A stretch of DNA of 52,284 bases from Verrucomicrobiota bacterium (lineage in GTDB: Bacteria > Verrucomicrobiota > Verrucomicrobiia > Chthoniobacterales > UBA10450), in contig QHNH01000020.1 of NCBI GenBank assembly GCA_003218375.1, positions 67,983 to 120,266 on the forward strand. The letters run 5' to 3'. Made by a program: the position numbers and the translations under genes. The first letter of the stretch is position 1, and each line of letters opens with the position of its first letter. This document shows, piece by piece, positions 26,231 through 47,029 of this stretch. The notes beneath the pieces are model-generated. The model had not been told where the DNA came from and did not search any database. It was given only the letters and a program-made list of their open reading frames with translations.

Positions 26231-26367
26231 GCTGGCGGGCGCCGGTTGTTTCGGTCACAAGACCGCCTCCAGCCCGCGCAGGCACAAATTTCGCAGAGAC
26301 AAAGCCAAAGGATGACGAGCGACTTTCTTGGTGCGCTGCAATCTGGAGGCAGGAAAGGAGAGATCGT

Positions 26368-26457
26368 ATGGATTACCTCGTTGTGTTTGCGACAATGCTC
26401 ATGATCGCCGGCTACGCCTGCATCATTGGCCGCTCTTTGCGGAAGCTCGAGCCGTAG
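26368..26457 (+). CDS. 29-residue single-pass membrane peptide B
   Basis: A ribosome binding site (AGGAAAGGAG) precedes the ATG by about 8 bases. The product is MDYLVVFATMLMIAGYACII followed by GRSLRKLEP. Like peptide A it is one helix with a basic tail, and both are exactly 29 residues. The two share M-[DN]-Y, F at 7, and LR..E near the end. This suggests a duplicated small-protein gene. It lies 98 bases before the FHA-cyclase gene. It would be missed by length cut-offs. Confidence 0.68.
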   Translation: MDYLVVFATMLMIAGYACIIGRSLRKLEP

Positions 26458-26555
26458 CAAGCAATCTTTACCGTCGAGCTCGAAGTGACGTTCCAGTCTT
26501 ATCACCTGCAAAAGGATTGACAGACCGGCGGGCTGATCCGCATTTTCTCGGGTCC

Positions 26556-30150: not shown

Positions 30151-30273
30151 GAGTGTTGCCTAACAAATGGTCTCCGCCCGGCCAAGCTCTTTCCATCGCC
30201 TCACGCCAGGGCGGGGCCGCCTCCGATTTCGAAACTTTTCCTTCTGGCCGCGATCTGCCATGATCCAATCCCC

Positions 30274-32001
30274 ATGGTGATTTGCGGACATTGCCAAAGC
30301 CAGAACTCGGCCTACGCGAAGTTTTGCGGCAAATGCGGTGCCGCGCTTCGGGCGCCCAGAGATCCGGCGAAGACGCAGGCGGCATGGAAAAAACCCGCTA
30401 GCGCCGCGGAGGCGGCGACCCTGGTCGAGCGCCCACTCGCGGCAGCGCGCCCGATCAAGAACCAGAGAAGCAGCACCATCGCTCAATCCGTCCCGGTCAA
30501 GCCCGCTACGCGCCCGGCCGTCGCGACGCCGTCCAAGATCGCCGTTCCGCAAAAAAAATCCCCCGAAGCTCGCGCCGGGGCGGCAAGCGAATCGGCGATC
30601 GACGTCGAGCCGTTGATGGCCGAGGAAGCGAAAGCCCGGGTAGCCGATCAGCTCGATCGGGCGCAGGCTCCCGCTCTGGCACTGTGGCTCAACTTTCCGC
30701 GCGCGCTCGTCGCGGGCTACGGCTCGATCGTGGAAGCGAAGATCGAAAATACCGGCGAAGAATCCCTCGAAAACCTCAGCGTGATGCTCGAATCCAACGG
30801 TCTCGCCGAGAGCATCGAAGTGATGTGCCGCCACATCGGACCCGGCAACTGGACCCGAAAACAAATCGAGCTGACGCCGGTCAAGGCGGGCAACTTCGTC
30901 CTGCGTTGCAACGTCAAGAGCGTCCGCGCGGCGCAGGCCTATGCGTTCCGCGGGGGCGTGCCGATCACCATCAACGTAGTCCCCGATCCGGCGAACTTCG
31001 TTTTCAATATCGGCGACATCCAATTGAATCGCGGCGGCGGCGGTAGCACCGGATTGGCGCAGGAATTCAAACCGATGAACATCGGCCAGCTCGTGGCGCC
31101 GGACGCGATCCGCTCGTTGAACGATCTCCTGAACCTGAGCTTCCCCGAGTCCTACGGGAAAGTGCCGCTCGAGCTGGATTACGAAGTGAGCCAGGTCGCC
31201 ATTTCCCAATCCGCCGCGCCTACATCCAGCGCCTGGACGATTCCCAAGCCGTTCCTCGATCGAGTGCAAGCGGGGACGAAATTGAAACTGGAGCCGGTCG
31301 AAGGAACGGCACCGGAGATTTGCGCCCTGCACCTGGTCGCGCGGGAAGAATTCCATCTCGGCCGTTCGCGCGAAGACGCGGATTTTCTGACCTGGTTCTG
31401 GCCGCGCTCGCCGCAAAATGACGAGCGCACGAAACGGTTAAGTAAAGTTCACGTCAGCGCTGCGCGGGCCGGCGATAAGCTCGTCCTGCGCGACGCCGGC
31501 AGCGCGAACCGCTCCACCTTCGAAGGACATCCGCTTTCTTTCACCGACGATGATGTCCTCGGCCAGCGCGGCACGCTGATCCTGGGGCATGAGTATCACA
31601 TCGACGTGGCCCCGTTCGATTCTACGCTTACCGGCGATCTGCGCATCGCGAACGCCCAGGATTGGGACGGGCCGCCCGAATACGAGGCGCCGAGGCGCGG
31701 CGCGGTTCGCTTCATGCCGATCAACTCGGAGCTGGCGTTGCGCAACGCGGTCTGGATTTTTACCGATGCGAACATCGGCTGCAGCCGGCTAAACGCGATC
31801 ATCCTCGACGCGCCCGGCGCCGCCGAAGTGGAAGGCCGCTTCCATTACTACCGGGACAATTTCTGGATCGAAGCGCTCGAAAGCGGGAATGGCATCACGG
31901 TGGATGGATACGAACTGGAGCCGCGCGATATCGTCCCCATCGTCGACGGCAGCGAAATAACGATCGCCGGCGTCACCTTCCAAGCGGCGGTCGAACCGTA
32001 G
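30274..32001 (+). CDS. Zinc-ribbon protein with FHA-like domain
   Basis: The 575-residue product begins with a zinc ribbon (CGHCQSQ and CGKCGAA, cysteines 4, 7, 18, 21), then a basic low-complexity linker. A beta-sandwich-like region follows (about 130-290). An FHA-like domain (about 350-440) carries LGRSREDADF, KRLSKVHVS and NRSTF. A final beta domain ends the protein. The FHA arginine, serine and Asn-Arg-Ser positions look present, suggesting phosphothreonine binding. The gene is divergent from kinase K1 (123-base gap), so a kinase-reader pairing is plausible. The ATG at 30274 is chosen because it places the zinc ribbon at the N-terminus. Confidence 0.8.
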   Translation: MVICGHCQSQNSAYAKFCGKCGAALRAPRDPAKTQAAWKKPASAAEAATLVERPLAAARPIKNQRSSTIAQSVPVKPATRPAVATPSKIAVPQKKSPEARAGAASESAIDVEPLMAEEAKARVADQLDRAQAPALALWLNFPRALVAGYGSIVEAKIENTGEESLENLSVMLESNGLAESIEVMCRHIGPGNWTRKQIELTPVKAGNFVLRCNVKSVRAAQAYAFRGGVPITINVVPDPANFVFNIGDIQLNRGGGGSTGLAQEFKPMNIGQLVAPDAIRSLNDLLNLSFPESYGKVPLELDYEVSQVAISQSAAPTSSAWTIPKPFLDRVQAGTKLKLEPVEGTAPEICALHLVAREEFHLGRSREDADFLTWFWPRSPQNDERTKRLSKVHVSAARAGDKLVLRDAGSANRSTFEGHPLSFTDDDVLGQRGTLILGHEYHIDVAPFDSTLTGDLRIANAQDWDGPPEYEAPRRGAVRFMPINSELALRNAVWIFTDANIGCSRLNAIILDAPGAAEVEGRFHYYRDNFWIEALESGNGITVDGYELEPRDIVPIVDGSEITIAGVTFQAAVEP

Positions 32002-32010
32002 TCTCTCTTC

Positions 32011-32035
32011 TGTAGCCGCCGCCCTGCGGGCGGCG
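32011..32035. repeat. TGTAGCCGCCGCCC palindromic hairpin between convergent genes
   Basis: A GC-rich hairpin with arms CGCCGCCC and GGGCGGCG (32017-32033) begins with the same TGTAGCCG word as the palindromes at 3149 and 33547. It lies between two convergent genes and may end both transcripts. Confidence 0.6.
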
Positions 32036-32047
32036 TGGGTATCGCGT

Positions 32048-32467
32048 CTATTTCTTCTTCCGCTGCAGATCGATTTCCTTGATGGCGGTCGTGGTGTGAG
32101 TCATCGACACGCCTTCGAGTTGATAGCTTAGCTCGAGGTTCCCGCCACAGAAGAGATGGTCCGGCTTGATCGATGACGAAAGACCAAAGGTGCAGCCCAT
32201 GATCGACACCGTGCCGGCCGGCCGGCCCGGTTGCGGGCAAACCAGAATGGCTTCGCGACCTTTCACGATGGTCAGAAAATATTCGCTGTGCAGCGTGACG
32301 ATTCTCAGCAGGTCGCCCGGCTGAAGCTGGGACAGCTCCAGCTCATCTCCGAGCTTGCCCTCGTTCGATTTCAGATACTGGACCCAATCCTCCATACAAA
32401 CGGATTCGTTCGCCGACATTTCCGCGGTTCGCAACGCCGCTTCTCGATTTGCGCGGACGAAAATCAT
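32048..32467 (-). CDS. Hypothetical protein coupled to kinase K2
   Basis: The 139-residue product has no recognised family. It begins MIFVRANREAALRTAEMSAN and is mostly beta and loop, with LRIVTLHSEYFLTIVKGREA and a Cys-containing FCGGNLELSYQLEG. No signal peptide or helix for membrane insertion is seen. Its ATG overlaps the K2 stop codon (ATGA), so it is translated with the kinase. It could be a substrate or regulator of K2. Longer upstream frames in this reading are shadows of K2. Confidence 0.7.
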   Translation of the reverse strand: MIFVRANREAALRTAEMSANESVCMEDWVQYLKSNEGKLGDELELSQLQPGDLLRIVTLHSEYFLTIVKGREAILVCPQPGRPAGTVSIMGCTFGLSSSIKPDHLFCGGNLELSYQLEGVSMTHTTTAIKEIDLQRKKK

Positions 32468-34524
32468 CGCGTCGACCGGTTCGTGATCGTCTCGCGATGA
32501 TAGATGATCTTGTATCCGCCGAGGCGGTTCTCCACCCGCCACGTGTCCGCGGCATGGCCGCGGGAAGTCTTGCCTTTGGCTTTGTTCCGCGCATCGAAAT
32601 CGTAGCCGAACGATACCGTATGTTCCCCGTTTCCGCTTTCGCGGACGTCGATCGCTCCGGTCAATTGCAACGTGATCTGCGGCCATGCCTTCACGTAGGT
32701 GCTGCAATCGCGCGCGATGAAATCCTTGCTCACCACGCCGTTGTCGAAGTAGTCAACCCGGCTCGCATAATCTGCCAACACGCCGTCGCAGTCGGACCGT
32801 TCCGTTTTCCGGAAATGCTCGGCGACGAATTGTTTGATCTGCTCCGTCGCGCCGGTCGCTGCCGGTTGTTCGCTCGGGTTCACTGTGTTCCGGCTGATCG
32901 TCTTTTGCTTTTGTGAGACGATCTTCAATTCCGCGTTCAGGCTTGGCCGTCGCACGATCCAGGTCACCATCACGGCGCCTTCGCTGGTTTTGCCCGCCGT
33001 GTTGCGCGCGCTGAACTCCATCGTGAACGAAACCGTTTTCGCATTGCTGTCCACGTCTTCGATCGTGATGTCGCTGGTGCGCCGGAAATTCTGCACCGGC
33101 CAGCGCGCGAAATATTCCGTGATCTCGCGCGCGAGCGTCTCGTGCGACTTGATCCCTTCGGTAAGGAAATCGACCTGGTCCCCGTAAAGCGACGCGACCG
33201 TGGCGGGATCGTTGCTCGAGACCGCTTTCAGGTGCTTCGCGACCAGTCCCTCGATTTCGACCCGGCTCGTGCTCGCCGGAGGTGGTGGCGGAACATAAAC
33301 GGGAGCGGTGCTGGATGCTTCCGCGGTCGGCGCCGGAGTTGATGGCGCTGCCGATGCGACGGGCGAACTCATTGACGGCGAACTATGGGGAACAATGCTC
33401 GGCGCCGGAGTCGCCTTCGGCTGCACTGTCGTGATCACCTCTGTCGTGGTTCTCGTCCCGAGCCACACAATGACGCCAATCAAGATTACCGTCGCGCCGA
33501 TCGCGGAAACAACCATGCCCGAATGTTGCCGGATCCAACTCTTCGCTGTAGCCGGGATCGATGATCCCGGCGGCGTTAGTGGCGGCGCTGGCGCTATTGG
33601 TGGCGGAGCTATTGGCGGTGGCGCCGGCGGCGGAACATACGTCCGCGTCGGAGACAAAAGACGTTCCTCCAGCTCGGCTGCGCTCTGCGGCCGCGCCCTG
33701 GGATCTTTTGCGAGGCAGGCAGCAACGGCTTCCTCCCAACGTGGCGGAATGGCGGCCTTGCTCGTGACTCCAAGGTCCGCGCGCCGCTTTGCCATCGTCG
33801 GCGGAATTTTCTCGCGCACGAGCCGATCGATCTGGCCGCTGTAAAAAGGCGGCTTGCCCGTCAGCAATTCGTAAACGGTCGCGCCTAACGAGTAGATGTC
33901 GTCCAGCTCCGAGACGTGCTCGCCCTCGAGTTGTTGCGGGCTCATGTAAACCAGTGTGCCGCTCGTTCCGCGTGACATCGTCAACATGCTCACCGAATCG
34001 GTCAGGCTCCGCGCGATCCCAAAGTCCGCCACTTTCACGTCGCCCCTCGCGTTCAACATCAGGTTCGACGGTTTCAAATCGCGATGGACGATCCGCGCCC
34101 GGATGTGCGCGTATTCGAGCGCGTCGCACACCTGTTGCAGCAATGGCCCCAGCTCTTCCACCTCGAAGACCTTGTCCGGGCGATCAACCCGCAACGACGA
34201 AAGCGTCGCGCCATCCACGTATTCCATGGAGATGCAGGCGCACTCGGTGTCCTGGGCGAAATCGTAAATCCGCACGATGTTGTGATGGGTCAGCGCCAGG
34301 CTGCGCACCGTCTCGCGTTTCAAGTCGTCGAGCACGGCCCGGTCATGGACCACGAGCTCGGGCAAAAACTTCAGCGCGACTTCCCGTTCCAATTCATCAT
34401 CGCGCGCCAGCCAGACAACGCCCATTCCGCCGCGGCCCAGGATGCGGACAAAGGTATAGCGGTTCAGGATTTTCTGGCCAGCGGCAAAGCCGCGAATGGT
34501 TTGGCCTAGGTCAAGTTCATCCAT
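32464..34524 (-). CDS. Hanks-type Ser/Thr kinase K2: kinase, TM, two NTF2-like domains
   Basis: The 686-residue protein opens MDELDLGQTIRGFAAGQKIL, then a kinase domain (about 23-290: catalytic Lys 52, HRDLK with Asp 149, DFG at 167-169, SPQQ instead of APEQ). A Pro-rich stretch and one transmembrane helix (336-356) follow, then two NTF2-like domains (421-545 and 560-686) on the outer side. The first 300 residues are nearly identical to K3 at protein and DNA level. A palindromic repeat sits within the Pro-rich linker (33547-33570). The coupled hypothetical gene follows. Confidence 0.94.
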   Translation of the reverse strand: MDELDLGQTIRGFAAGQKILNRYTFVRILGRGGMGVVWLARDDELEREVALKFLPELVVHDRAVLDDLKRETVRSLALTHHNIVRIYDFAQDTECACISMEYVDGATLSSLRVDRPDKVFEVEELGPLLQQVCDALEYAHIRARIVHRDLKPSNLMLNARGDVKVADFGIARSLTDSVSMLTMSRGTSGTLVYMSPQQLEGEHVSELDDIYSLGATVYELLTGKPPFYSGQIDRLVREKIPPTMAKRRADLGVTSKAAIPPRWEEAVAACLAKDPRARPQSAAELEERLLSPTRTYVPPPAPPPIAPPPIAPAPPLTPPGSSIPATAKSWIRQHSGMVVSAIGATVILIGVIVWLGTRTTTEVITTVQPKATPAPSIVPHSSPSMSSPVASAAPSTPAPTAEASSTAPVYVPPPPPASTSRVEIEGLVAKHLKAVSSNDPATVASLYGDQVDFLTEGIKSHETLAREITEYFARWPVQNFRRTSDITIEDVDSNAKTVSFTMEFSARNTAGKTSEGAVMVTWIVRRPSLNAELKIVSQKQKTISRNTVNPSEQPAATGATEQIKQFVAEHFRKTERSDCDGVLADYASRVDYFDNGVVSKDFIARDCSTYVKAWPQITLQLTGAIDVRESGNGEHTVSFGYDFDARNKAKGKTSRGHAADTWRVENRLGGYKIIYHRETITNRSTR
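33547..33570. repeat. TGTAGCCGGGATCG palindromic repeat inside a kinase gene
   Basis: TGTAGCCGGGATCGATGATC followed by CCGG is another copy of the repeat at 3149 and 3196. It lies within the K2 coding frame just before the transmembrane helix, so the element has been absorbed in frame in a flexible linker. Confidence 0.75.
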
Positions 34525-34560
34525 GTTCCAGGGACCGGTTAAATCGCCCGCATCTTGGCA
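34522..34560 (-). repeat. 39-base leader duplicate shared with K3 (other copy 36540-36578)
   Basis: The 39 bases covering the K2 start codon and its upstream region are identical to those of K3 (36540-36578), beginning CATGTTCCAGGGACCGGTTA on the plus strand. Beyond this the two regions drift apart. It marks a recent tandem duplication that included the 5-prime leader and likely part of the promoter. Confidence 0.85.
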
Positions 34561-34613
34561 ATTCTCGCGGGTGTTGTCACTCCTGGCGTAATTGAAGCCG
34601 TTGATAAACGAGT

Positions 34614-36542
34614 CTACTTGCTCTCGGCCCTGGCGATTACCTCATCAAGGAGCTGTTGGCTTTGCGATTGATTGGGTTCAAACTCCCAGATCTCCTTATC
34701 CAGGAGATATTGGGCCGGCGTTCCGAATACTCTATTGGTGTTCGGCTGTAGGGTTACGATTCCAGCCAGGGTCCCGCCCCGGCAAAGAAGCAATGGTCCG
34801 CCGCTCTCGATAGGACTTAGCGATGTTCGAATGAGAGTTCGCGAACCGCTCTTGTCGAACCGGGAAATAGTCCCCTCGGCAACTTTGAGGCCGTTGGAGA
34901 TAGCCACGCACGCTTCGGCTTCGCGGATTTGGTCTAATTGCCCAACCGCAATCCGGTTCGGCGTCCATTTGCCTTCGAGTCTGACCAAGAGGAGTGCCAA
35001 ATCGATATTGTCTTTTGCGCGAGCAACCACTAGGCAGTCGGCATAATCCTTATGAAAAGAAAACCTGACGCCACAGGTGTCGATCGACGCAACGCGATCA
35101 ATAATCTGCTTGCTCGTAACGATGAGCGCGCGGGCCGAGTTATTGTAAAAGAGGATTCCTGTCGCACTAGAGCCGGAAGCTGTCTCGTTTAGCTTTAGCT
35201 TTCCGGGTGTTTGAGGTTTTCCAGTTATGTGCACTTCGACAATGAGCGTCTTGTAAATATCGCGGAGCTCGTCCCGAGTGAAGATTCGCTCTTGCGACTG
35301 AGGCGACTTGGCATTTGCCGTAGTTTGGGGAGTGAGTTGCGGCCCAGCAGTCGGCGTCGCCGAGAGGTTGTCTGTTGCCGGAGACTTTTGTTCCTGGACC
35401 GAATTCTTGACCGGCGAGTTCATTAGAAAATAAACGACGAGGCTTCCCAAGGCGATAATGCCGAAGAGCAGCACAGCCATCGCAGCGCCGACAAAAAGAG
35501 CTCGGTTAGGTTGACGCGTCGGTGCGGGCTTGATCAAGGGCGGCGGTGGCGCCGAGGTCGGCTGGGGTCCCGTGGAAGAAATCGGCGGTGGCGGTGGCGG
35601 CGGCGGTGGCGTCGTGGCTGAGGTCGTTAGGACCTTGGCGGACGGGGGAGGAGGAGCCGCCGTTTGAGTCCCACGCAAACGCTCTGCCAAGGCCGCGGCG
35701 GATAGTGGTCGGCGACTCGGATCTTTGGCCAGGCAATCGGCTACGCACTCTTCCCAATGCTTCGGGATAGGAATATTTGACGTAATCCCGAACTCCGAAC
35801 GGCGCACGCTCATAGGCGCAGCCACCTTTTCGCAGATCTGGCGCTCGATTCCACCGCTGAAGAAGGGCGGTTTGCTCGTCAGTAACTCGTAGATCGTGGC
35901 ACCCAGCGCATAAATATCGTCGGAGAAGGATGGAAACTCTCCGTTCAGTTGCTGCGGACTCATGTAAAGGAGCGTCCCACTGACCGCTCGACCTCGTGTC
36001 AGCATGCTAATGGAGTCGCTCAGGCTTCGAGCGATGCCGAAGTCGGTCACCTTCAATTCTCCTTTGGAGTTTAGCATCAGATTCGCTGGCTTCAGATCGC
36101 GATGGACGATCGCGGCGCGGTTATGCGCGTAGGTGAGCGCTTCGCAAAGTTCCGCCATCGGCTGTGCCAGCTCTTCCACCTCGAAGACCTTGTCCGGGCG
36201 ATCAACCCGCAACGAAGAAAGCGTCGCGCCGTCCACGTATTCCATGGAAATGCAGGCGCACTCGGCGTCCTGGGCGAAATCGTAAATCCGCACGATGTTG
36301 TGATGGGTGAGGGTAAGGCTGCGCCGGGTTTCGTGTTTGAGTTCCTCGAGCACCGCCCGGTCGTGGACCACCAGCTCGGGCAAAAACTTTAGCGCTACTT
36401 CGCGTTCGAGTTCATCATCGCGTGCCAGCCAGACAACGCCCATTCCGCCCCGGCCCAGGATGCGGACAAAGGTGTAGCGGTTCAGGATTTTCTGGCCCGC
36501 GCTGAAGCCGCGGATGGTTTGGCCTAAATCAAGTTCGTCCAT
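34614..36542 (-). CDS. Hanks-type Ser/Thr kinase K3: kinase, TM, degenerate trypsin-like domain
   Basis: The 642-residue protein has a kinase half almost identical to K2 (Lys 52, HRDLK Asp 149, DFG 167-169, SPQQ), a Pro-rich linker and one transmembrane helix (about 346-373). The outer part (about 420-620) resembles trypsin/DegP proteases. The SPIESGGPLLL segment supplies a serine (580) and DNIDLALLLV an aspartate (514). The expected His region reads IVTSKQIID, with Gln 479 at the catalytic histidine position. It probably binds peptides without cutting them. Its DNA is noticeably A+T-richer over this outer domain than over the kinase half, suggesting a separate origin. Confidence 0.92.
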   Translation of the reverse strand: MDELDLGQTIRGFSAGQKILNRYTFVRILGRGGMGVVWLARDDELEREVALKFLPELVVHDRAVLEELKHETRRSLTLTHHNIVRIYDFAQDAECACISMEYVDGATLSSLRVDRPDKVFEVEELAQPMAELCEALTYAHNRAAIVHRDLKPANLMLNSKGELKVTDFGIARSLSDSISMLTRGRAVSGTLLYMSPQQLNGEFPSFSDDIYALGATIYELLTSKPPFFSGGIERQICEKVAAPMSVRRSEFGITSNIPIPKHWEECVADCLAKDPSRRPLSAAALAERLRGTQTAAPPPPSAKVLTTSATTPPPPPPPPPISSTGPQPTSAPPPPLIKPAPTRQPNRALFVGAAMAVLLFGIIALGSLVVYFLMNSPVKNSVQEQKSPATDNLSATPTAGPQLTPQTTANAKSPQSQERIFTRDELRDIYKTLIVEVHITGKPQTPGKLKLNETASGSSATGILFYNNSARALIVTSKQIIDRVASIDTCGVRFSFHKDYADCLVVARAKDNIDLALLLVRLEGKWTPNRIAVGQLDQIREAEACVAISNGLKVAEGTISRFDKSGSRTLIRTSLSPIESGGPLLLCRGGTLAGIVTLQPNTNRVFGTPAQYLLDKEIWEFEPNQSQSQQLLDEVIARAESK

Positions 36543-36578
36543 GTTCCAGGGACCGGTTAAATCGCCCGCATCTTGGCA
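36540..36578 (-). repeat. 39-base leader duplicate shared with K2 (other copy 34522-34560)
   Basis: This is the second copy of the leader described at 34522-34560, identical over 39 bases, at the start of K3. Confidence 0.85.
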
Positions 36579-36671
36579 GCTATCGTGAATAGTGTCACGC
36601 CTTCCGTCGGCCTGGAAAAACCTGGCTCGGGTTTGGTTGACCTTTCGACCCCCAATCTCTATCGCTCAGGC

Positions 36672-37412
36672 ATGGCGGAGGAGACGTGGGTCGTGTTCAG
36701 CGACATTCATTCCAACCTCGAGGCGTTCCAGGCCGTCCTGGCAGACATGCGCACGATCCGCTTCCACCGCATGATCTGCCTGGGCGACGTCGCCGGTTAC
36801 GCTGCCAGCCCGAAGGATTGTCTCGACCTGCTCAGGACGCTTGAGACCGACGTGTTACAAGGCAATCATGACTTCGCCGTAGTCGACGATGAAATCCTAT
36901 TCGATATGAGCGGGCCGGCCGTCACTGGCGTGCGCTATGCCCGCGAGCAGCTCTCTGCGTCACGCCGCGATTTCCTCGCCGCTCTTCCCATGGTCGCCAC
37001 CCACGGTAAGCTTCAATTTGTCCACTCGTCCCTGGACCATCCCGAGGCATGGACCTATCTCCGGCGCGAGCCGGAGATTCGCGCCCATTTTGCCGTCCAA
37101 ACCGATCCCGTTTGTTTCTGCGGCCACACCCACATTCCTGGGGTCTTCCACCTGGGTTCGGGGGACGAGATTCGGTCGTTAGGCGCGAGCGGCCGCATCG
37201 AGTTGCCTCGCGAGGGAAAAGTCCTGATCAACGCCGGCTCCGTCGGCCAGCCTCGCGATCGCAATCCCGATGCCTGCTACGTCGTCTACGAGAAAGCCGC
37301 GCGTACCGTCGAGTTCCGCCGCGTTCCTTACGATATCGACGCGGCGAAAGAGAGAATAATCCGAGCCGGATTGCCCAAGATCACCGCCGAGCGGCTTTCA
37401 TTCGGAAAGTAA
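36672..37412 (+). CDS. Calcineurin-like metallophosphoesterase
   Basis: The 246-residue protein has the two-metal phosphoesterase motifs in order: SDIHSNLEA, GDVAGY, GNHD and GHTHIPG. It resembles the small YfcE/MJ0936-type enzymes that hydrolyse phosphodiesters or phosphoesters. The frame can extend to an ATG at 36573, but homologues begin near MAEETWVVFSD, so 36672 is preferred. It is the only plus-strand gene inside the kinase run, between K3 and K4. A role in removing signals (phosphoprotein or cyclic nucleotide) is tempting but unproven. Confidence 0.9.
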   Translation: MAEETWVVFSDIHSNLEAFQAVLADMRTIRFHRMICLGDVAGYAASPKDCLDLLRTLETDVLQGNHDFAVVDDEILFDMSGPAVTGVRYAREQLSASRRDFLAALPMVATHGKLQFVHSSLDHPEAWTYLRREPEIRAHFAVQTDPVCFCGHTHIPGVFHLGSGDEIRSLGASGRIELPREGKVLINAGSVGQPRDRNPDACYVVYEKAARTVEFRRVPYDIDAAKERIIRAGLPKITAERLSFGK

Positions 37413-37448
37413 GTCTTCTCCTGACAGGAGTTCGGAACCCCGGGGCGA

Positions 37449-40265
37449 TTACTTCTTGAGGATTCTATCCGTCAGGTCCGGCATGCCGGGAGATAGGACC
37501 GCCACGGGAACATAATTCGTGCTCTCCCCGCTCGAATCGAAGACGAGATTGAAGCTCTCCGCGCCTGCCCGAGTTTTCAAAGTAGAGGTAATCTTCGCGA
37601 CAATGTCCTCGCGCATTTTCATGGCCTGGTCCTGGAGCTCTTTTTCGCGCTTCGTGCGAAACTCGTTGATCTCACGCTCCAGGTCTTTGATTTTGGTTAT
37701 CTTGGCGTCGCGCTCGCGTGCCATTGCCGTCTTGGTCTCGGCGGTCAGCGACGGAGAATCCAGCTGTAAGTTCAGGCGGTTGATTTCATCGAGATCCTTT
37801 TTGTACCGATCGGCAAGGACATCGTACTCTTTTTTGGCGGCATCCTTGGCCTCATTGATTTTTGCTTCCGACGAGGTTGTTTCGGGCCATGCCTTGAAAG
37901 CGCGGTTCATGTTGATCACCCCGAAACGCAAAGCCTTCGCGGGACTAGGCAAGGTGTGGAACCTACCGGATCCGCTCGTCCCGTTTAATGCCGCAATGGC
38001 ATCGTCGGAGAAGTCCGGAACACCGCTCAGATAGGTTACCACTGGGACACCGTTCATGCTCGGTCCGCTGAGGTCTAGCAAGAGAGCCCCCGGTGTCTGC
38101 TGGATTCCCTTGCCGATGGCATCCGTGATTTCTTTGACGATTGCTTCGCGCATTCTCAGGGCCTGCTCCTGCAGTTGTTTCTCCCGAGTTTGCCGGAAGT
38201 CATTAATCTCCTTTTCCATCGCCTTGATTTTCGCGATCGCCGCATCTCGTTCCTTCGCCAGGGCAGTCTTGGCAGATGCGCTGAGGGAAGGCGAATCGAG
38301 GCGGGTATTCAGGTTGTTAATTTCATCCAGCGCTTTCTTGTAAGTTGCCGCGCGGTCGTCGTACTCCTTCTTCGCCGCGTCCTTGGCTTCGTTAATCTTC
38401 GTTTCCGCGTCCTTCGTCTTTCGGTAGCTCTTGAAGATACGATTCATGTCCACCACGCCCACCGAGAGATCGTGCGTTCCGGTGAAAGAGGAGCGGCTTT
38501 TACGATTCAGGGCCGAGATCACTTTGTCGCTCACATCGGCGCGGTCGGGAGCAAACATCAACAACGGCACCCCGTTCGTAGTTTGCCCACTCCTATCGTA
38601 GATCATGCCTCGAGTAGTGGCGTTTAGGCTGGTGATTTCCTGGGTGATCTCTTTTACGAGGTTCGTTCGCATTTTTGTCGCCTGCTCTTGAAGTTGCCTC
38701 TCGCGAGTCTGGCGGAAATCATTGATCTCGCGCTCCATGTTCTTGATGTTCGCGACCTTTTCGTCGCGGTCCTTGGCCATGGAAGTCTTCTTGTCCGCGC
38801 TTAAGCCCGGCGAATCGAGCTGCTGGTTGAGTTTGTTGATTTCGTCGAGCGCCTTTTTGTAGTTCTCGGCGCGATCGTCATATTCTTTTTTCGCGGCGTC
38901 CTTGGCCTCGTTGATCTTGGCCTCCGAATCCTTCGTCTTGCTGTATTCCTTGAAGATTCGGTTCATATCCACCAGCGCGATTGCCGGGTCATAACCATCC
39001 GAGGACGAATACGAGGAGGTCTGGGCTGGCGCACTGGTCGCTGTCGCGGTGGTTGCGGGCGAAGACAATGGGACTGCGGTGTAAGCGACAACTGGTGGCG
39101 GCGTGGTAGTCGCGCGCGCCGGTGTCGGCACCGGACTGCTCGGGAGCGTCACTTCGAGGGGGCCTAGCTTGACCGTTCGGTCCGCCGACTCGTCCCGTGA
39201 GCGCACGCTCAAATAGATGGCGGCGCCGCCCAAAAGAAGAACAGCCGCCACCGCCGCGCTGATGTAAAAGACGCGGTTCGAGCGAGGCTTCGACTGGACT
39301 TCGATTACTGGGGTTGGAATGGGCGTGAACGACGCTGGGGGTTTTGGTGGCGAGGCGGAAGGCGCGACTGCAATCGGCGGCGGGCTCGAGATACCGCGCA
39401 ACCGATCAATCAGTGTGGCAGCCGACGGCGGACGCTGGCCGGGATCCTTCGCCAGACAAGCTGCGACGCAATCTTCCCAATGCTTCGGAATCGAAACGGG
39501 CGACGCGATGCCCAAATCCTCCCGCCGCACACTCATAGGCGGCGGGACTTTTTCATGGATCTGCCGTTCGATGCCACCACTATAAAAGGGAGGTTTGCTG
39601 GTGAGTAACTCGTAGATCGTTGCGCCGACCGAATAGATATCATCCGCGGCGGAGGGCCGGTCCCCATCCAATTGCTGGGGGCTCATATAAAGAAGCGTCC
39701 CACTGACGCCGCGACCCATCGTGAGCAGGCTGATCGAATCGCTGAGACTTCGGGCGATGCCGAAGTCGGTCACCTTTAACACGCCACCGGCTGTCAGCAT
39801 CAGGTTCGCCGGTTTCAGGTCGCGATGAACGATCTTGGCGCGGGTGTGCGCGTAGGTAAGCGCTTCGCAAAGCTCGGACATCGGTTGCAGCAGCTCGTCG
39901 GCCTGGAAGACCTTGTCCGGCCGGTCGATTCGCAATGCCGAAAGCGTTTCGCCGTCGACAAACTCCATCGAAATGCAGGCGCTAGTACTGTCCTGCGCGA
40001 AATCGTAGATGCGCACGATGTGGTGATGAGTCAGGTCCAGGTTTCGTCTCGTCTCGCGTTTCAAATCGTCGAGCACGGCCCGGTCGTGAATGATCAGCTC
40101 CGGAAGGAACTTAAGCGCTACGTCGCGCTCGAGGTGCTCGTCAAACGCGCGCCAGACGATTCCCATGCCGCCGCGCCCGAGGATCGATTTAAGGATGTAG
40201 CGCTCGAACATCTTCTGTCCGGCGGCAAAGCCACGGATCGTCTGGCCAAGATCGAGTTCTTCCAT
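37449..40265 (-). CDS. Hanks-type Ser/Thr kinase K4: kinase, TM, three tandem Skp/OmpH domains
   Basis: The 938-residue protein has a kinase domain (catalytic Lys 52, HRDLK Asp 149, DFG 167-169, SPQQ), a linker and one transmembrane helix (about 332-354). Outside are three tandem OmpH/Skp modules of about 160 residues: 428-586, 601-762 and 780-938. Each opens with a VDMNRIFK-like strand, runs through a long charged coiled coil (EAKINEAKDAAKKEYD) and closes with a two-strand NGVPLL...FAPDRADVS-type segment. Free Skp is a trimer that holds unfolded outer-membrane proteins. Here the three copies could form one intramolecular Skp-like jellyfish, letting the kinase sense misfolded outer-membrane proteins. 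I know of no described fusion of this kind, though I cannot search. Confidence 0.93.
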   Translation of the reverse strand: MEELDLGQTIRGFAAGQKMFERYILKSILGRGGMGIVWRAFDEHLERDVALKFLPELIIHDRAVLDDLKRETRRNLDLTHHHIVRIYDFAQDSTSACISMEFVDGETLSALRIDRPDKVFQADELLQPMSELCEALTYAHTRAKIVHRDLKPANLMLTAGGVLKVTDFGIARSLSDSISLLTMGRGVSGTLLYMSPQQLDGDRPSAADDIYSVGATIYELLTSKPPFYSGGIERQIHEKVPPPMSVRREDLGIASPVSIPKHWEDCVAACLAKDPGQRPPSAATLIDRLRGISSPPPIAVAPSASPPKPPASFTPIPTPVIEVQSKPRSNRVFYISAAVAAVLLLGGAAIYLSVRSRDESADRTVKLGPLEVTLPSSPVPTPARATTTPPPVVAYTAVPLSSPATTATATSAPAQTSSYSSSDGYDPAIALVDMNRIFKEYSKTKDSEAKINEAKDAAKKEYDDRAENYKKALDEINKLNQQLDSPGLSADKKTSMAKDRDEKVANIKNMEREINDFRQTRERQLQEQATKMRTNLVKEITQEITSLNATTRGMIYDRSGQTTNGVPLLMFAPDRADVSDKVISALNRKSRSSFTGTHDLSVGVVDMNRIFKSYRKTKDAETKINEAKDAAKKEYDDRAATYKKALDEINNLNTRLDSPSLSASAKTALAKERDAAIAKIKAMEKEINDFRQTREKQLQEQALRMREAIVKEITDAIGKGIQQTPGALLLDLSGPSMNGVPVVTYLSGVPDFSDDAIAALNGTSGSGRFHTLPSPAKALRFGVINMNRAFKAWPETTSSEAKINEAKDAAKKEYDVLADRYKKDLDEINRLNLQLDSPSLTAETKTAMARERDAKITKIKDLEREINEFRTKREKELQDQAMKMREDIVAKITSTLKTRAGAESFNLVFDSSGESTNYVPVAVLSPGMPDLTDRILKK

Positions 40266-40311
40266 CGGTTACGCGTCCTTTACCCGATTCGATCTCAAGG
40301 CGGGGCTAACT

Positions 40312-41019
40312 TCAAGGATGATCCGTCTCGAGTAAGGCGTGAACCCCGGCCACCAGTGCGTCAACCATCGCCCGCTTATTCGATTCCTGTTTTATCCATT
40401 CTGCGTCGTGCCGCGACGTAAGAAAAATCATCTCCACGAGCAAAGTAGGGACTTCGCTAAAGATCGAGCCGGTTAAAGCACCCTGCTTCCCGCCAATCAA
40501 CGTTCCTTCCTCGCCGCGCAGCCCATTATCTTTTAACTTGCCGCTAAGACTGGCCGCGAAAGCTCGATGGAAATTTGTAGCAGCGCGCTTCGAGGATGCG
40601 AGAACTTCCGCCGACGGGCCTTCGATTCCATGCCAGTTGCCTCGCCGGCTGGGATAATAGACGGTGAAGCCGGTGGATTCTCCTTCATCGGCATGAAGGC
40701 GCAGAAACAGGCTTGCTCCCGCGGAGTTCGCGATCTCAGCCCGGTGCCGGTTCGTTACAAACTCCTTTTCGGCCTTCTTAGTCAGGACCACCTTGATCCC
40801 ATCACTTTCGAGACGTTGCTTTAGAAGAAGAGCTACTTCCCAATTGAGCGAGGTTTCGCTAAGTCCGTTCGTTACCTTCGCGCCGTCGTTGTTTTCGCTG
40901 GGATGGCCGGGATCGATGCAGACGCAAAAATTTCCGGTGGCGGGGGCGGCCATTGACCTCAGACAGTTGCCGGGGACCGCTACGATAAGCAACCAAAACA
41001 AAAGCCGGAACGATCTCAT
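40312..41019 (-). CDS. N-acetylmuramoyl-L-alanine amidase, second copy
   Basis: The 235-residue protein has a signal peptide (ending SMAAP) and zinc-ligand motifs DPGHPSENNDG, NWEVALLLKQ, RLHADEGEST and LLVEMIFLTS. It belongs to Amidase_3 and probably cuts septal or side-wall peptidoglycan. It differs clearly from the amidase at 27407-28267. It lies 11 bases after K5 and 46 bases before K4 on the same strand, so it is likely co-transcribed with kinases. Confidence 0.91.
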   Translation of the reverse strand: MRSFRLLFWLLIVAVPGNCLRSMAAPATGNFCVCIDPGHPSENNDGAKVTNGLSETSLNWEVALLLKQRLESDGIKVVLTKKAEKEFVTNRHRAEIANSAGASLFLRLHADEGESTGFTVYYPSRRGNWHGIEGPSAEVLASSKRAATNFHRAFAASLSGKLKDNGLRGEEGTLIGGKQGALTGSIFSEVPTLLVEMIFLTSRHDAEWIKQESNKRAMVDALVAGVHALLETDHP

Positions 41020-41030
41020 ACCGATGAGAT

Positions 41031-42613
41031 TCAGCGACGGCTGTCTCTTATCTTTTGCAGAAGCTCGAGGTTGACATATTCCAGGCGGGAGAGTTGAGCT
41101 GCTGCCACTTCTTGGGTACGGCCCGCGACCCAGCGCTGACGATACCAGGCAAAGCGTGAGAAGAGCGCCTTGATCTCGGCATTTTGAAAATCATAGCCTC
41201 CGCGAGCATAAAGCTCATTGATCGCATAGCGCAGCCTGGCGTCACTCCAGGTGCGGATTTCATTTGATGTAAGGAGGCGAGTTCGCGTTTCGGGGAATTG
41301 TTCGTCACTTGTCGGCTCCGAAGAAGCTGGCGGCGAAACTGCCTCCGCAGGAGGAGAGATAGTAGCTCTTGTTTCCGTGACTGGCGCTGGAGATTCAACC
41401 GCGGTGGTTGTTGCGAATTTGGGCGCAGCCGTCGAAGTCTCTGAGGAAGGTTGAAGCGTCCTGGCGCTTTCCATCATCTTCGCCGCGGCGCTCGGGGTTG
41501 GGTTCGTTGATGGCGAAGACTGAACCGCCGCACTCCTCTCCGAGATTTTCGGTTCGCGGCGAGAGAGAAGTGCATAGGAAACCACGATGAGCCCGATAAG
41601 GATTGCAGCGCTCGCGATAAGAACGGAGACGTTCCAGGGGCGGGGATTCAGAGGGGAAGGTGGAACGGCAGTGAGTGAAGGCGAAACGGCGACAAGGGGA
41701 GGCGGAACGGCGGTCGTAACGGTGGGCGGCTCTTTCCCGGTCAAGCCCAAGCGCTGGATGATCTCACCGGCGTGTTGCGGTCGCTCCTGCGGTAGTTTCG
41801 CAAGACACGATCGAATCGTCTCCTCCCAATGAACTGGGATGCCCTGCTCACTGGCGATATTAAGATCGGTCCGGCGTTGTGACATCGGCTCGGGCGTCTT
41901 GGTCTTAATCTGATCCGTGATGTCGCCACTGTAGAAAGGTGGTTTGCCGGTCAAGAGCTCGTAGATCGTTGCCCCGATGGAGTAGATGTCATCGAGATGG
42001 GTGGCCCTTTCGCCAGTGATTTGCTGCGGGCTCATATAGGCCAGGGTGCCGCTCGTCCCGTGCATCAGAGTTAGACTGCTCACAGAATCGCTCAGGCTTC
42101 GAGCGATCCCGAAGTCGGCCACCTTCAATTCTCCTTTGCCACTTAGCATCAGGTTCGCTGGTTGATGTCCCGATGCGCGATCCTGGCGCTCTCGTGTGCG
42201 TATTGCAGCGCTTCGCACGCCTGCCTGATCCACGGGCCGAGCGCCTGAACGTCGAAGACTTTGCCGGCCTGCTCGACCCGCAACGCGGACAAGGTGGAGC
42301 CATCGACGTACTCCATTGAAATGCAGGCGCTCTCCGCGTCGTTCACGAAATCGTAAATGCGAACGATGTTATGATGCGTGAGCTGGAGGCTGCGCTTGGT
42401 CTCTATCTTCAGTTCGTCGAGCGCAGCCGCATCATTAACCACAAGGTCGGGCAAAAACTTCAGAGCCACGTTTCGTTCCAGCGCGTCGTCTTGCGCCAGC
42501 CAGACGACTCCCATTCCTCCGCGCCCGAGAAGACGGACCAGGGTATAACGCTGAAAACATCTTTGCCCGGCCCCCAAACCGCGAATCGTAGCGCCGACAT
42601 CAAGCTCGGTCAT
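41031..42613 (-). pseudogene. Hanks-type Ser/Thr kinase K5 with YARHG domain, frameshifted
   Basis: The first 154 residues are a normal kinase N-lobe ending AHRDINQRT before an early stop. The next frame continues exactly as the kinase (PANLMLSGKGELKVADFGIA...SPQQ), with a transmembrane helix (VSVLIASAAILIGLIVVSYA) and a YARHG domain (ELYARGGYDF...FSRFAWYRQRW). Other kinases here read HRDIKPANL. Restoring one base at 42162-42163 (AA to AAA on the minus strand) rejoins the frames, giving about 527 residues. The lesion removes the catalytic-loop lysine and everything after it. It may be recent decay, a phase-variable run or an assembly error. Confidence 0.9.
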
Positions 42614-42675
42614 GGTCCGGGTTTAGCAGGGGCCAGCGGCCGATGCGAGCCCAAAGCGTTCGTGCGATAGACTTC

Positions 42676-44667
42676 TTAGCGGTCCGAGTGGAGGTCGCCG
42701 AGCGTGTCAATGTGCCACTCACCGTTTTCCACCACAAGCCTGATCGGGCCGTTCCAGTGGATCAATTTTCCGTTCGACTCGACTTCCTGGAAGGTCACTT
42801 CGACTGTGGCGGAGCTGCTCGTCGCGGCGGTTCGACTGACGCTGGTCAAGGTCAATGTCCCTGTTTTCTTCAGGCGTCGCAGATATTCCTGGAACGCGAC
42901 CCGGGTGTGGTAGCTCGTCCCGAAAAGCCGATAGGCGGTGGTCCCATCCTGGTTGTTCACGGCGGTGAAGTAACTTTTCACGACCGCGATGGCGCCGTCC
43001 GGCTCTGACGCGTCGGACGCCTTCTCCTGCCTCACGCTCTTCTGCTTGTGGGAAACGATCTTGAACGAAGACCATGGACCGTCCCGGCGGACGATCCAGG
43101 TCACGTTCACCATATTTTGCCGCTTCTCGCGCGTCGCCGGATTGCTCGCTTCGAAATCAAGAGTGTAACCGACTTTCCTCTCGTTCGTGCCGAGCGTCTC
43201 GATAGTAATGTCTCCGATCAGTTTGGAACGTCGCACCGGCCAATGGGCGAAGTATTCCGGCAAATCCTTCGCGATGTCATCGCGTGATTTCAATCCTTCA
43301 TCGTAGAAGTCTACGCTATCCGCATAGAGGGCCATGGAGGCCGCGACGTCACCGCGGGTTCCCGCTTCGATCTGCGTGGCAACCATCGCTTCGATCTCTT
43401 CCCGCTCACTCCGGGCGCTTGGCGGGAGTGAAGGCGAAGGCTCGGTGCGCTGGACCGGTGCCACGGTCTCCTCAGGAGTAGGGGACTTAATGACGGGCGA
43501 CCGTGTTACCGGCGCGGGAGTGGGGCTAACTATCGCAGCGCGCGGACTCGCCAGCGGAGCGACCGGGGTTTTTTCGATGGGCGTTTCCTTATTCGAACTA
43601 AACCACCAGAAAGTGCCACCGATGATTGCCAACAAGATCGCGCCCCCGGCGATCAACACTCGATTCGTTAGGTAAGGCGGTAGCTTCGGACCGCGCGTTG
43701 GTTCAACGACCTTTACGATGTCCGGCGGAGACGGAGGGGTCGGCAAAGGTGGAGTTATCGGCAAAGGAGGGGTCGTCTGCGATGGCAGGGGAGCGGCGCG
43801 CAACCGATCGCGGACATCCAGTGCGGTCTGCGGTCGCGCCGCCGGATCCTTGGCGAGGCAAGCCGCGATCGTTTGCTCCCATTGCTCGGGAATCCTCCTG
43901 CTGCTGTCAATTCCCAGCTCCTCTCGTTTCGCCGTTAGCGACCCCGACGTTTTCTCGCGGATCAATCGTTCGATGCCTCCGCTGTGGAACGGCGGCTTGC
44001 TCGTCATCAGCTCGTAAAGAGTAGCGCCGAGGGAATAGATATCGTCGAGATTCGAGGCCCGCTCCCCGTCAAGTTGTTGCGGGCTCATGTAAGCCAGGGT
44101 GCCGCTGGTGCCGCGCGCCATCGTCAGCATGGTCACGGAATCGCTAAGGCTCCGCGCGATCCCGAAGTCCGCCACCTTCAAGTCTCCTTTGCCGTTCAAC
44201 ATCAGGTTTGCCGGCTTGATGTCGCGATGGACGATTCGCGCGTGCTGGTGGGCATATTGGAGCGCCTCACAAATTTGCTCGATCCACGGCGCCAGCTGCT
44301 CGGATTCGAAAACGCGGCTGGGTTGCTCGACGCGCAAGGCCGAGAGGGTGGGGCCATCCACGTACTCCATCGAGATACAGGCGCTTTCCGCGTCCTGCAC
44401 GAAGTCGTGGATCCGAACAATGTTATGATGAGTGAGCTGGAGGCTGCGCCGCGTTTCCCGCTTCAATTCGTCGAGCACCGCGAGATCGTGCACCACCAAG
44501 TCCGGCAAAAACTTCAGCGCCACCTCCCGGTTCAGCTCTTCATCCTTGGCGAGCCAGACAATGCCCATCCCGCCCCGACCAAGAATCCGGACCAGGGTGT
44601 AACGCCGAAAGACCTTTTGGCCTGACCTGAACCCGCGAATGGTTTGTCCCAAGTCGAGTTCTTCCAT
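42676..44667 (-). CDS. Hanks-type Ser/Thr kinase K6: kinase, TM, two NTF2-like domains
   Basis: The 663-residue protein has a kinase domain (catalytic Lys 52, HRDIK with Asp 149, DFG at 167-169, SPQQ at about 195-198) and one transmembrane helix (335-357). Two outer domains follow: an NTF2-like one (420-545, ALYADSVDFYDEGLKSRDDI) similar to those of K1 and K2, and a second, more divergent NTF2-like/SnoaL-type one (556-663). NTF2 folds often bind small ligands in a pocket. It starts 73 bases after the end of K7 and ends 62 bases before K5, so a shared transcript is likely. Confidence 0.94.
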   Translation of the reverse strand: MEELDLGQTIRGFRSGQKVFRRYTLVRILGRGGMGIVWLAKDEELNREVALKFLPDLVVHDLAVLDELKRETRRSLQLTHHNIVRIHDFVQDAESACISMEYVDGPTLSALRVEQPSRVFESEQLAPWIEQICEALQYAHQHARIVHRDIKPANLMLNGKGDLKVADFGIARSLSDSVTMLTMARGTSGTLAYMSPQQLDGERASNLDDIYSLGATLYELMTSKPPFHSGGIERLIREKTSGSLTAKREELGIDSSRRIPEQWEQTIAACLAKDPAARPQTALDVRDRLRAAPLPSQTTPPLPITPPLPTPPSPPDIVKVVEPTRGPKLPPYLTNRVLIAGGAILLAIIGGTFWWFSSNKETPIEKTPVAPLASPRAAIVSPTPAPVTRSPVIKSPTPEETVAPVQRTEPSPSLPPSARSEREEIEAMVATQIEAGTRGDVAASMALYADSVDFYDEGLKSRDDIAKDLPEYFAHWPVRRSKLIGDITIETLGTNERKVGYTLDFEASNPATREKRQNMVNVTWIVRRDGPWSSFKIVSHKQKSVRQEKASDASEPDGAIAVVKSYFTAVNNQDGTTAYRLFGTSYHTRVAFQEYLRRLKKTGTLTLTSVSRTAATSSSATVEVTFQEVESNGKLIHWNGPIRLVVENGEWHIDTLGDLHSDR

Positions 44668-44740
44668 GAGTTAGGGCCGTCTGGTTATTCGAATTGGAAG
44701 CGCGCGGTCGTAACAAAGGGTTCGTTCGCCAAACCGGATG

Positions 44741-47029
44741 CTACTTCCGATGGTTGAGGATTCCTTGGATAAGTCCCCCGAGGAGCTGCGCAGCCTCTTG
44801 TTCTCTTTGGGCTTGGAGCACGGCCTCCTGCTGCGCGCGCTCTGCTTCCAGCTGCTTTTGTTGAGCCAGCGCCGCTTGTCGCTGCTGCTCAGCATACTTT
44901 TGTTGAGCGAGAGCTGCTTGTCGCTGCCGTTCGGCATACTCTTGTTGAGCGAGGGCTGCCGCCTGTCGCGCCCGGTCGGCATTTTCTTTCCGAACAACGG
45001 TAACCGCATGCAGGGTGACAACATTCTGCACTTCCACGTCCGAAAAAGACTCTTCGATCTGTTGATTACTTAAATCCCGACGCGGACGATACCAGCTCAA
45101 TTTGGCGAAGACGGCCGCGATTTTCTTGTCGTCGAATAACCTGCCGTGGCGCGCGAACGCCTCGTTGATGGCGTATTGCAGGTCGTCATCGCTCCAGTTC
45201 TGCACTTCGTTGCTTTGCAGGATGCGCATCCGGGTTTGGGCGAAACGTTCGCCGGACATCGCCTCGGCGGGGAAGAGCGGGTTCCCATCGGCGTTACGGC
45301 CGTCCTTGGCAAAACGTTTGATCGCCTGCACGTTCGCTTTGCCTACTTCGGAGATATACTTGTCGATCGCTTCGCTCAGCAGCCTCTTGTCCCGATTCGC
45401 CTTGTCCGTTCCCAGAATCGCCGGCGACGAAAACTCCGAGATCGCTTTGCCGCGCAACGCATCGGCCGGTGTGAGGTCGGCCGCTACTACTCGATCCACC
45501 CGCCAATCGTTTCCTTCCCGAAGCGCTTTGAATTGGAACTGGAAGTCGACCGTTTTTCCGACGGCTGTCGTCTCCTGGACAAATTGGAACGCCCCTTCAT
45601 CGACCGCGGCCACATCGCTACCGGCGCGTTGCCGCAAAAAGCTGGCGCGTTCCCGCGCCTTACGCCACTCGGCTAGCTTCAGCTCTGGAAGCACGGCGGT
45701 GTCCTCGTTCGCGACACCTTCATACAAAGCGCCGCGGGTGATCGCTGATCCTTTTATAGTCACGTGCGCCACGCCGGTGCTTTCCCGCACGATCGCTACC
45801 TCCTTCGGTTCGAAACGTAGCAGCGTCCCTTTGCCGAACGCCGCCGTCGTTTGCTCCAGTGGAACCGTTCGCGCCCATTCCGCGGTCGGTTCGCGGTTGG
45901 ACATGTCCGCGATCAAGCCGCGCACACTTTTCACGCCCACCGCGACTAGGGCCACGAACCCAATAACGGCGAGCGCTGCGAGACCCCAGGCAACCAGGCG
46001 TCGCACCGGAAACGGCTGGCGGACTGGGCGAGGAATTGGAGTTAGCACGATCGGCGCCGGGACCGCGGTAACCATGCGGTTACTGTCCGCGTCGCCCGGC
46101 GTCGGCAACGACGTGGTGTTGGTAACCGGCGCGCTTTCGATCGGCCGTGGCGCCAGTCCTAAACGCGCCGCGAGGTCGCCCGCGCTTCGGGGTCGCTGCG
46201 CCGAATCCTTGGAAAGACAGGCGCCAATCGTCTGCTCCCAGTCATCCGGAACGACGTCATCGTTCGCGATATCCAACTCCTTGCGCCGCGCCGCCACCGG
46301 GATCGGCGCCTTCTCACGGATCTGCGTTTCAATGGCGCCGCTGAAGAACGGCGGCTTACTCGTCAGCAATTCGTACAGGGTCGCGCCAAAGGAATAAATA
46401 TCGTCGAGCGAGGACGGGCGCTCGCCATCGAGCTGTTGCGGACTCATGTAAAGGAGGGTGCCGCTCGTGGCCTTCATCGACAGCATGCTGACCGAGTCGC
46501 TCAGGCTGCGCGCGATGCCGAAGTCGGTGATCTTGAGTTGCGCGTTCGCGTTTACCATCAGGTTAGCCGGCTTGAGATCGCGGTGGACGATCCGCGCCCG
46601 GCTGTGCGCGTATTCGAGCGCATGACAAAACTGCGCCACCAGCGGCCGGAGCTCCGCTACTTTGAAGATTTTCGCTTCGCGTTCCACGCGTAACGCCGAG
46701 AGGGTCGAACCATCGACGTATTCCATCGAGATGCAGGCGGTGTTGTCTTCGTGGGCGAAATCGTAGATTCGGACGATGTTATGATGGGTCAGCTCGAGGT
46801 TGCGTTTCGTTTCCCGTTTCAGCTCATCGAGCGCCGCGTGGTCGAGCACGATCAGTTCGGGCAGGAATTTCAACGCCACGTCGCGCTCGAGATGCTCGTC
46901 AAACGCCCGCCAGACAATCCCCATCCCGCCTCGCCCGAGGATCGCCTTCAGCGTGTAACGCCCAAACAAATTTTCCCCCGGCGCGAACCCGCGCAGCGTC
47001 TGTCCCAGATCGAGATCATTGTCGCTCAT
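44741..47029 (-). CDS. Hanks-type Ser/Thr kinase K7: kinase, TM, YARHG, coiled coil
   Basis: The 762-residue protein has a kinase domain (catalytic Lys 54, HRDLK Asp 151, DFG 169-171, SPQQ) and one transmembrane helix (345-368). A beta-rich outer segment (about 390-520) follows, then a YARHG domain (597-652, INEAFARHGRLF...LSWYRP) and a long Gln/Ala-rich coiled coil (682-750) made of 14-residue repeats. YARHG domains are extracellular and often wall associated. It is the first gene of the minus-strand kinase run, with no kinase upstream, so its promoter likely lies in 47030-47120. Confidence 0.94.
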   Translation of the reverse strand: MSDNDLDLGQTLRGFAPGENLFGRYTLKAILGRGGMGIVWRAFDEHLERDVALKFLPELIVLDHAALDELKRETKRNLELTHHNIVRIYDFAHEDNTACISMEYVDGSTLSALRVEREAKIFKVAELRPLVAQFCHALEYAHSRARIVHRDLKPANLMVNANAQLKITDFGIARSLSDSVSMLSMKATSGTLLYMSPQQLDGERPSSLDDIYSFGATLYELLTSKPPFFSGAIETQIREKAPIPVAARRKELDIANDDVVPDDWEQTIGACLSKDSAQRPRSAGDLAARLGLAPRPIESAPVTNTTSLPTPGDADSNRMVTAVPAPIVLTPIPRPVRQPFPVRRLVAWGLAALAVIGFVALVAVGVKSVRGLIADMSNREPTAEWARTVPLEQTTAAFGKGTLLRFEPKEVAIVRESTGVAHVTIKGSAITRGALYEGVANEDTAVLPELKLAEWRKARERASFLRQRAGSDVAAVDEGAFQFVQETTAVGKTVDFQFQFKALREGNDWRVDRVVAADLTPADALRGKAISEFSSPAILGTDKANRDKRLLSEAIDKYISEVGKANVQAIKRFAKDGRNADGNPLFPAEAMSGERFAQTRMRILQSNEVQNWSDDDLQYAINEAFARHGRLFDDKKIAAVFAKLSWYRPRRDLSNQQIEESFSDVEVQNVVTLHAVTVVRKENADRARQAAALAQQEYAERQRQAALAQQKYAEQQRQAALAQQKQLEAERAQQEAVLQAQREQEAAQLLGGLIQGILNHRK
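44831..44956 (-). repeat. Three 42-base tandem repeats encoding 14-residue coiled-coil units
   Basis: The segment encodes ALAQQEYAERQRQA, ALAQQKYAEQQRQA and ALAQQKQLEAERAQ, that is, two heptads per unit. It lies inside the C-terminus of K7. Such in-frame repeats can change copy number by slippage. Confidence 0.75.

Follow-up and report, generated by a model that had tools for sequence, protein, structure and literature searches.

We describe a 938-residue protein, encoded on the minus strand at positions 37449-40265 of a 52,284-nucleotide stretch of DNA (the window) from a soil-type bacterium of the Verrucomicrobiota, in which a Hanks-type Ser/Thr kinase domain, a transmembrane helix and three tandem modules of the OmpH/Skp chaperone family follow one another in one chain. 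Judged from its sequence, it is best read as a single-pass membrane receptor with a predicted Hanks-type Ser/Thr kinase output. The explanation we favour, to which we give a probability of about 0.45, is that its periplasmic part would act as an intramolecular, three-headed Skp-like sensor with unfolded outer-membrane proteins (OMPs) as ligand, and that this ectodomain is interchangeable between kinases and TIR proteins.

The reading frame opens with an ATG, and its Pfam kinase match covers residues 24-280 (39426-40196, minus strand; E 5.3e-46), with the motifs GRGGMG, VALKF, HRDLKP, DFG and SGTLLYMSP all kept. The model for PknB/Stk1 PASTA kinases (NF033483) stayed below its cut-off, reaching 222.6 of the 450 bits needed and over residues 17-298 only, while the PADLOC models PD-T4-6 and MAD6 matched the protein strongly, best over residues 17-294, that is, the kinase domain; both models also matched the paralogue at 28264. 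Between kinase and modules hydropathy reveals a single hydrophobic helix (about residues 335-354; 39204-39263, minus strand), its best 20-residue window starting at residue 335, and because basic residues precede this one helix, an arrangement with the kinase inside and the OmpH modules outside fits. The natural reading would therefore place the kinase in the cytoplasm and the modules in the periplasm, and the periplasm-facing ectodomain proposed in the first-pass annotation is to this extent supported by hydropathy.

A Pro/Ser/Thr-rich linker (residues 355-425; 38991-39203, minus strand) leads into the modules. Pfam finds OmpH (PF03938) in three stretches of the protein (146 bits; cut-off 32.4), and in a profile search of the same genome each module passed this cut-off alone: module 1 (residues 426-592; 38490-38990, minus strand) with 53.6 bits over 38508-38981, module 2 (residues 599-765; 37971-38471, minus strand) with 59.1 bits over 37986-38462, and module 3 (residues 778-938; 37452-37934, minus strand) with 61.6 bits over 37452-37928. 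The first-pass annotation had placed three tandem OmpH/Skp modules, fused to a kinase, at 37452-38984, and was right in both the architecture and the position. Since modules 2 and 3 share 61% and 50% identity, respectively, with module 1, the three are diverged repeats and not a duplication introduced by assembly. Free Skp is a separate periplasmic protein with its own signal peptide. Here a kinase and an internal transmembrane helix precede the modules, and the gene, although it encodes Skp modules, is not a Skp chaperone gene.

In order to compare folds, AlphaFold models of the ectodomains of the kinase protein and of its orthologue from the sister species G407 were built from three-row alignments (a further alignment, A2, in which the triples were shifted against each other, was left out of folding). 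The models reached a mean pLDDT of 66.9 with pTM 0.33 and a mean pLDDT of 70.0 with pTM 0.47, respectively. Helix hairpins flanked by strands appear in both models, in the kinase protein for all three modules, and residues with pLDDT below 50 lie mostly in the closing strands and linkers. Foldseek placed SkpA (8gl8), Caulobacter OmpH (4kqt) and E. coli Skp (1u2m and 1sg2) at the head of the matches to the kinase-protein model, at modest E values of 2.8e-4 to 2.5e-3, and these entries also top the list for the G407 model. VIA-align superposed module 2 on the whole of E. coli Skp chain 1sg2_C, 142 residues out of 142, at 2.6 A and Z 11.9; the Skp matches land on module 2 (that of 4kqt begins late in module 1 and continues through module 2), so that the superposition on the Skp fold rests on module 2, with modules 1 and 3 seen within the whole ectodomain model only. 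A profile built from modules and free Skps, 21 sequences in all, and searched against PDB sequences at E 0.01, matched the Skp homologue 8gl8_G alone (E 3.7e-8) and did not reach E. coli Skp, and a single-sequence phmmer search of the PDB returned no Skp.

A generic coiled coil was rejected as an identity for the modules on account of the full-length coverage of Skp chains together with the sequence profiles. The eight best Foldseek and the four best VIA-align matches are all Skp/OmpH chains; further down the VIA-align list, at Z 9.4 to 11.1, stand helical proteins unrelated to Skp, and scores at this level are common for models rich in helix. Kinship with Skp/OmpH, as first proposed, is thus borne out by sequence (Pfam and profiles) as well as by fold (module 2 on 1sg2_C). 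As modelled, the modules are of Skp type, with a strand, a two-helix arm and closing strands, the last at low model confidence. The AlphaFold check suggested along with the first-pass annotation returned Skp-like hairpins, and from neither of the two three-row models could confident packing between modules, or a common head barrel, be read; given alignments of only three rows, this lack is weak evidence either way.

A search for fusions of this kind, likewise suggested at the outset, yielded TIR-fused orthologues. In the two sister species G407 and G408, an orthologous triple OmpH module stands behind an N-terminal TIR_2 domain (E 2.5e-18 and 2.8e-20, respectively) instead of a kinase, and each of the two proteins aligns with the kinase protein from module 1 to the end at 48% identity. 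The arms, counted from beta1 to the DxSG turn, measure 125, 126 and 126 residues in the kinase protein and 125, 126 and 57 in both TIR proteins. In module 3 of both TIR proteins 69 arm residues are therefore absent, with the head strands and the C-terminal segment kept; in the remaining seven of the nine modules, arm length varies by no more than one residue. The armless third module gives a Pfam stretch of its own in G407 (three stretches) and not in G408 (two stretches). A missing arm with its head retained is as expected if three heads must complete one barrel, with which this sequence pattern fits, although it does not prove it. At the corresponding site in the relative G409, other genes lie between the histidine kinase and NHL genes, and tblastn with the G407 TIR domain plus ectodomain found no match in the four loci L155-L158, from which we conclude that there was either gain or loss of the TIR-OmpH gene at this site; that histidine kinase is absent, at E 1e-60, from the genome of the window and from G412.

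The heads carry a second signal. A tree of whole modules grouped only module 3 by position (96/91) and joined modules 1 and 2 of the TIR proteins with each other (98/95). As the arms looked homogenised towards free Skp, a second tree was made from the head segments of the nine modules and of 11 of the 42 free Skps. In this head-only tree, the modules 1 of the kinase and TIR proteins fall together, as do their modules 3 (94/93 for either group), while modules 2 do not group by position (6% of bootstrap trees); the head of the kinase protein's module 2 scores best against a free Skp (0.43, versus 0.35 and 0.31 against the TIR modules 2), and its modules 2 and 3 form long branches. We read these sequence patterns as pointing to one old triplication followed by domain swapping, the arms being homogenised later, a history that the whole-module tree does not recover for modules 1 and 2.

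According to the E. coli study, A103, A108 and V117 are interface residues of Skp (PMC7577714). At the position aligned to A108, modules 1, 2 and 3 of the three proteins carry L/T/T, I/L/L and A/A/A (34 of the 42 free Skps have V), at that aligned to V117 they carry Y/F/L, L/I/I and F/F/F (F in all 42), and at that aligned to A103 they carry E/A/A, A/A/A and T/Y/F (V in 27 of 42). Interface residues that are specific to position suggest complementary packing of the heads, a suggestion drawn from nine modules; the E of the kinase protein's module 1 at the A103-aligned position, with a gap nearby, counts against it.

Module 1 of the kinase protein is a mosaic. Its arm is identical to that of the free Skp of G406 at 86 of 97 positions, where the free Skp of its own genome and that of G406 share 82 of 97; its tail, in contrast, keeps 12 of 44, compared with 51 of 63 between the tails of the same two free Skps. 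Modules 2 and 3 have diverged from the G406 tail to a similar degree (19/49 and 14/44), and the arms of modules 1 and 2 in G407 match free Skp at 50 and 60 of 97 positions. A close arm combined with a diverged tail is as expected if client binding was kept and the interface re-specialised. The arm may have stayed close either through selection for the same clients or by being recopied from skp. A recent gene conversion is possible: module 1 arm and own skp agree at 17 of 23 fourfold sites, own and G406 skp at 12 of 24, and synonymous sites do not settle the matter.

The triple module is rare. It occurs in three of the eight genomes of the genus, namely that of the window, G407 and G408, and among 83 genomes of the family, 81 of them with a match, only these three have several modules in one frame; a match in G425 that spans 4-343 of the query (contig C135) comprises 501 bases and a single module. 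The triple profile passed E 1e-40 in 178 of 213 genomes of the order and E 1e-48 in 36 of 384 sampled genomes of the class, with no further triple among the matches listed in either set, and across 387 sampled genomes of the phylum, with at most three candidates scored per genome, a triple appeared in the genome of the window only, among the matches listed. Other phyla were covered by a contig scan with two short patterns, which returned 25 loci. A widespread family of kinase-OmpH proteins was thus not seen among the matches listed for the family, order, class and phylum genomes searched. Seven relatives hold, at eight places (L064, L065, L066, L067, L068, L069, L070 and L071, the G425 match being L068), further OmpH matches that are single-module Skp genes beside the main one.

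One relative departs from the count of three. Locus L121 (694-1995), one of the 25 from the contig scan, encodes two OmpH modules that come after a TIR reading frame which is broken; from beta1 to DxSG their arms measure 111 and 79 residues. Pfam reports three OmpH stretches there; we count two modules because the sequence contains two first strands and two DxSG turns. The contig comes from a metagenome-assembled genome labelled Acidobacteria, and we suspect that it is misplaced, since its TIR domain resembles the TIRs of the present genus. L121 shows that three modules are not absolute, though the gene is possibly decaying. Neither this two-module relative nor the fact that the sensor is not tied to kinases had figured in the first-pass annotation.

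The gene is one of seven paralogous receptor kinase genes that form a minus-strand array (28264-47029) and differ in their ectodomains. The other six carry a PEGA ectodomain (28264-30150), SnoaL-like ectodomains (32464-34524 and 42676-44667), a trypsin-like ectodomain (34614-36542) and YARHG ectodomains (41031-42613, its reading frame broken near the HRD motif, and 44741-47029). Beside the kinase array, on the plus strand, lie a gene for an FHA-domain protein (26328-27410) and a second FHA-domain reading frame (29956-32001), possibly phosphothreonine readers for these kinases. Two amidase_3 genes (27407-28267 and 40312-41019, both minus strand) are interleaved with the kinases. At E 1e-60, the genome has seven kinase-domain matches, six in the array, where the broken gene gave none, and a seventh on contig C47, compared with one or two in each of the seven other genomes of the genus. 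Each genome of the genus has one to six TIR matches, and 18 of 30 TIR loci gave a usable ectodomain; the 30 loci (L072-L101) represent a family of TIR-transmembrane proteins that extends through the genus and whose ectodomains vary. As SnoaL-like ectodomains of kinases are homologous to those of TIR proteins (e.g. E 4.6e-17), and the OmpH triple likewise, sharing of sensors between kinase and TIR outputs recurs in this genus. The one further OmpH match in the genome of the window is its free Skp, on contig C3, whose gene directly follows an Omp85/POTRA gene, as skp follows bamA in E. coli.

Unfolded OMPs are known clients of Skp. In the mechanism that we propose, the three heads of one chain (first strand plus closing strands) would close into a barrel like the one made by three separate subunits in free Skp, and from it coiled-coil arms would hang to enclose a client-binding cavity; the ligand, judged from Skp biology, would be unfolded OMPs. 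Once a client is bound, the arms would become ordered and the barrel more stable; trans-phosphorylation might follow where one client is of sufficient length to span two receptors and so pairs their kinases. A single-chain form would free the folding switch from the concentration of Skp and couple it to the membrane, and the sensor would be a swappable cassette, with a kinase or a TIR domain behind the same ectodomain. The topology we infer from hydropathy, and the intramolecular barrel, the ligand, the activation step and the output are inferred along with it. The E. coli work describes Skp monomers as disordered, with arms that fold on trimerisation, and clients as contacting all three subunits and shifting Skp to the trimer (PMC7577714). 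The built-in trimer of the first-pass annotation gains from the three heads kept where one arm is missing in the TIR orthologues, and from heads 1 and 3 being position-specific; the arrangement itself has no confident counterpart in the AlphaFold models. Points against this mechanism are also the rarity of the triple, the two modules of L121, the absence in G408 of a separate Pfam stretch for the armless module, heads of module 2 that do not fall by position, and the joining of TIR modules 1 and 2 in the tree of whole modules.

Three other explanations have to be weighed against this intramolecular sensor. The three Skp-derived hairpins might be a passive tandem repeat, an extended spacer or adhesive coiled coil that forms no cage and in which copy number is incidental. 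Models without confident inter-module packing agree with such a repeat, as does the two-module L121, and yet a module 3 that lacks its arm and retains its head strands is the opposite of what a spacer needs, and the other seven arms differ in length by at most one residue; we regard it as unlikely. Slightly less probable is a repurposed scaffold, whose Skp-like body would hold a dedicated protein partner and not general unfolded OMP clients. The precedent is SkpA, which is described as a structural element holding the N terminus of SprA in the type 9 translocon (PMC10994853), and the diverged arms of G407 modules 1 and 2 and the missing third arm of the TIR proteins point the same way, but the kinase protein's module 1 arm, as near to the free Skp of G406 as free Skps are to each other, suggests shared clients.

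The least probable of the three is a mixed assembly, in which each tethered module would pair with free Skp subunits, so that the receptor would read the free Skp pool and have no cage of its own. A free Skp encoded in the same genome, directly after the Omp85 gene, would be at hand for it, and the arm of module 1 is still close to free Skp; the interface tails, however, have diverged far beyond the difference between free Skps, heads 1 and 3 go by position in the kinase and TIR proteins alike, and three heads per chain would be superfluous. We retain the intramolecular sensor as our main reading. TIR domains are known in general to cleave NAD. A broader and more doubtful extension of the intramolecular sensor is that a chaperone trimer became a single-chain sensor cage by gene triplication and that the cassette was then passed between kinase and TIR proteins, so that unfolded OMPs, arising for example from an attack on the envelope, would elicit phosphorylation or an immune-type NAD response.

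If the intramolecular sensor is real, a homotrimer has been turned into a single-chain, heterotypic trimer that offers a direct means of watching unfolded OMPs and ties envelope quality control to TIR signalling; the triple-Skp ectodomain appears to be an exchangeable sensor of disturbances in the envelope. The first-pass annotation knew of no described kinase of this type, and, among the open-access titles and abstract openings listed, we found neither an OmpH/Skp-kinase nor an OmpH/Skp-TIR protein, nor a description of a whole chaperone trimer in one chain serving as a sensor shared with TIR proteins.

Compared with known systems, the modules share with the Skp/OmpH chaperone (PF03938; E. 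coli Skp 1sg2/1u2m) the sequence family, first strand, two-helix arm and closing strands, and differ in standing three to a chain, anchored in the membrane behind a kinase, with position-specific heads in modules 1 and 3. In the type 9 translocon, SkpA (8gl8) is another case of the Skp fold taken over for a different task (PMC10994853), there as a homotrimer in a secretion complex and here as a receptor ectodomain. Receptor kinases with varied periplasmic domains are an already known kind, and the transmembrane Hanks-type kinases surveyed in Planctomycetota likewise have a cytoplasmic kinase, a membrane helix and a variable periplasmic domain, the main text of that survey containing no occurrence of OmpH (PMC11032199). 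The membrane TIR proteins of the same genus resemble the present protein in carrying OmpH-triple or SnoaL-like ectodomain families behind one membrane helix, and differ in having a TIR output and not a kinase. In the DegS/RseA sigma-E pathway, unfolded OMPs are sensed at the inner membrane by a protease cascade that reads their C-terminal peptides. The receptor proposed here would resemble that pathway in sensing unfolded OMPs from the inner membrane, and would differ from it in being a chaperone-derived receptor instead of a protease cascade.
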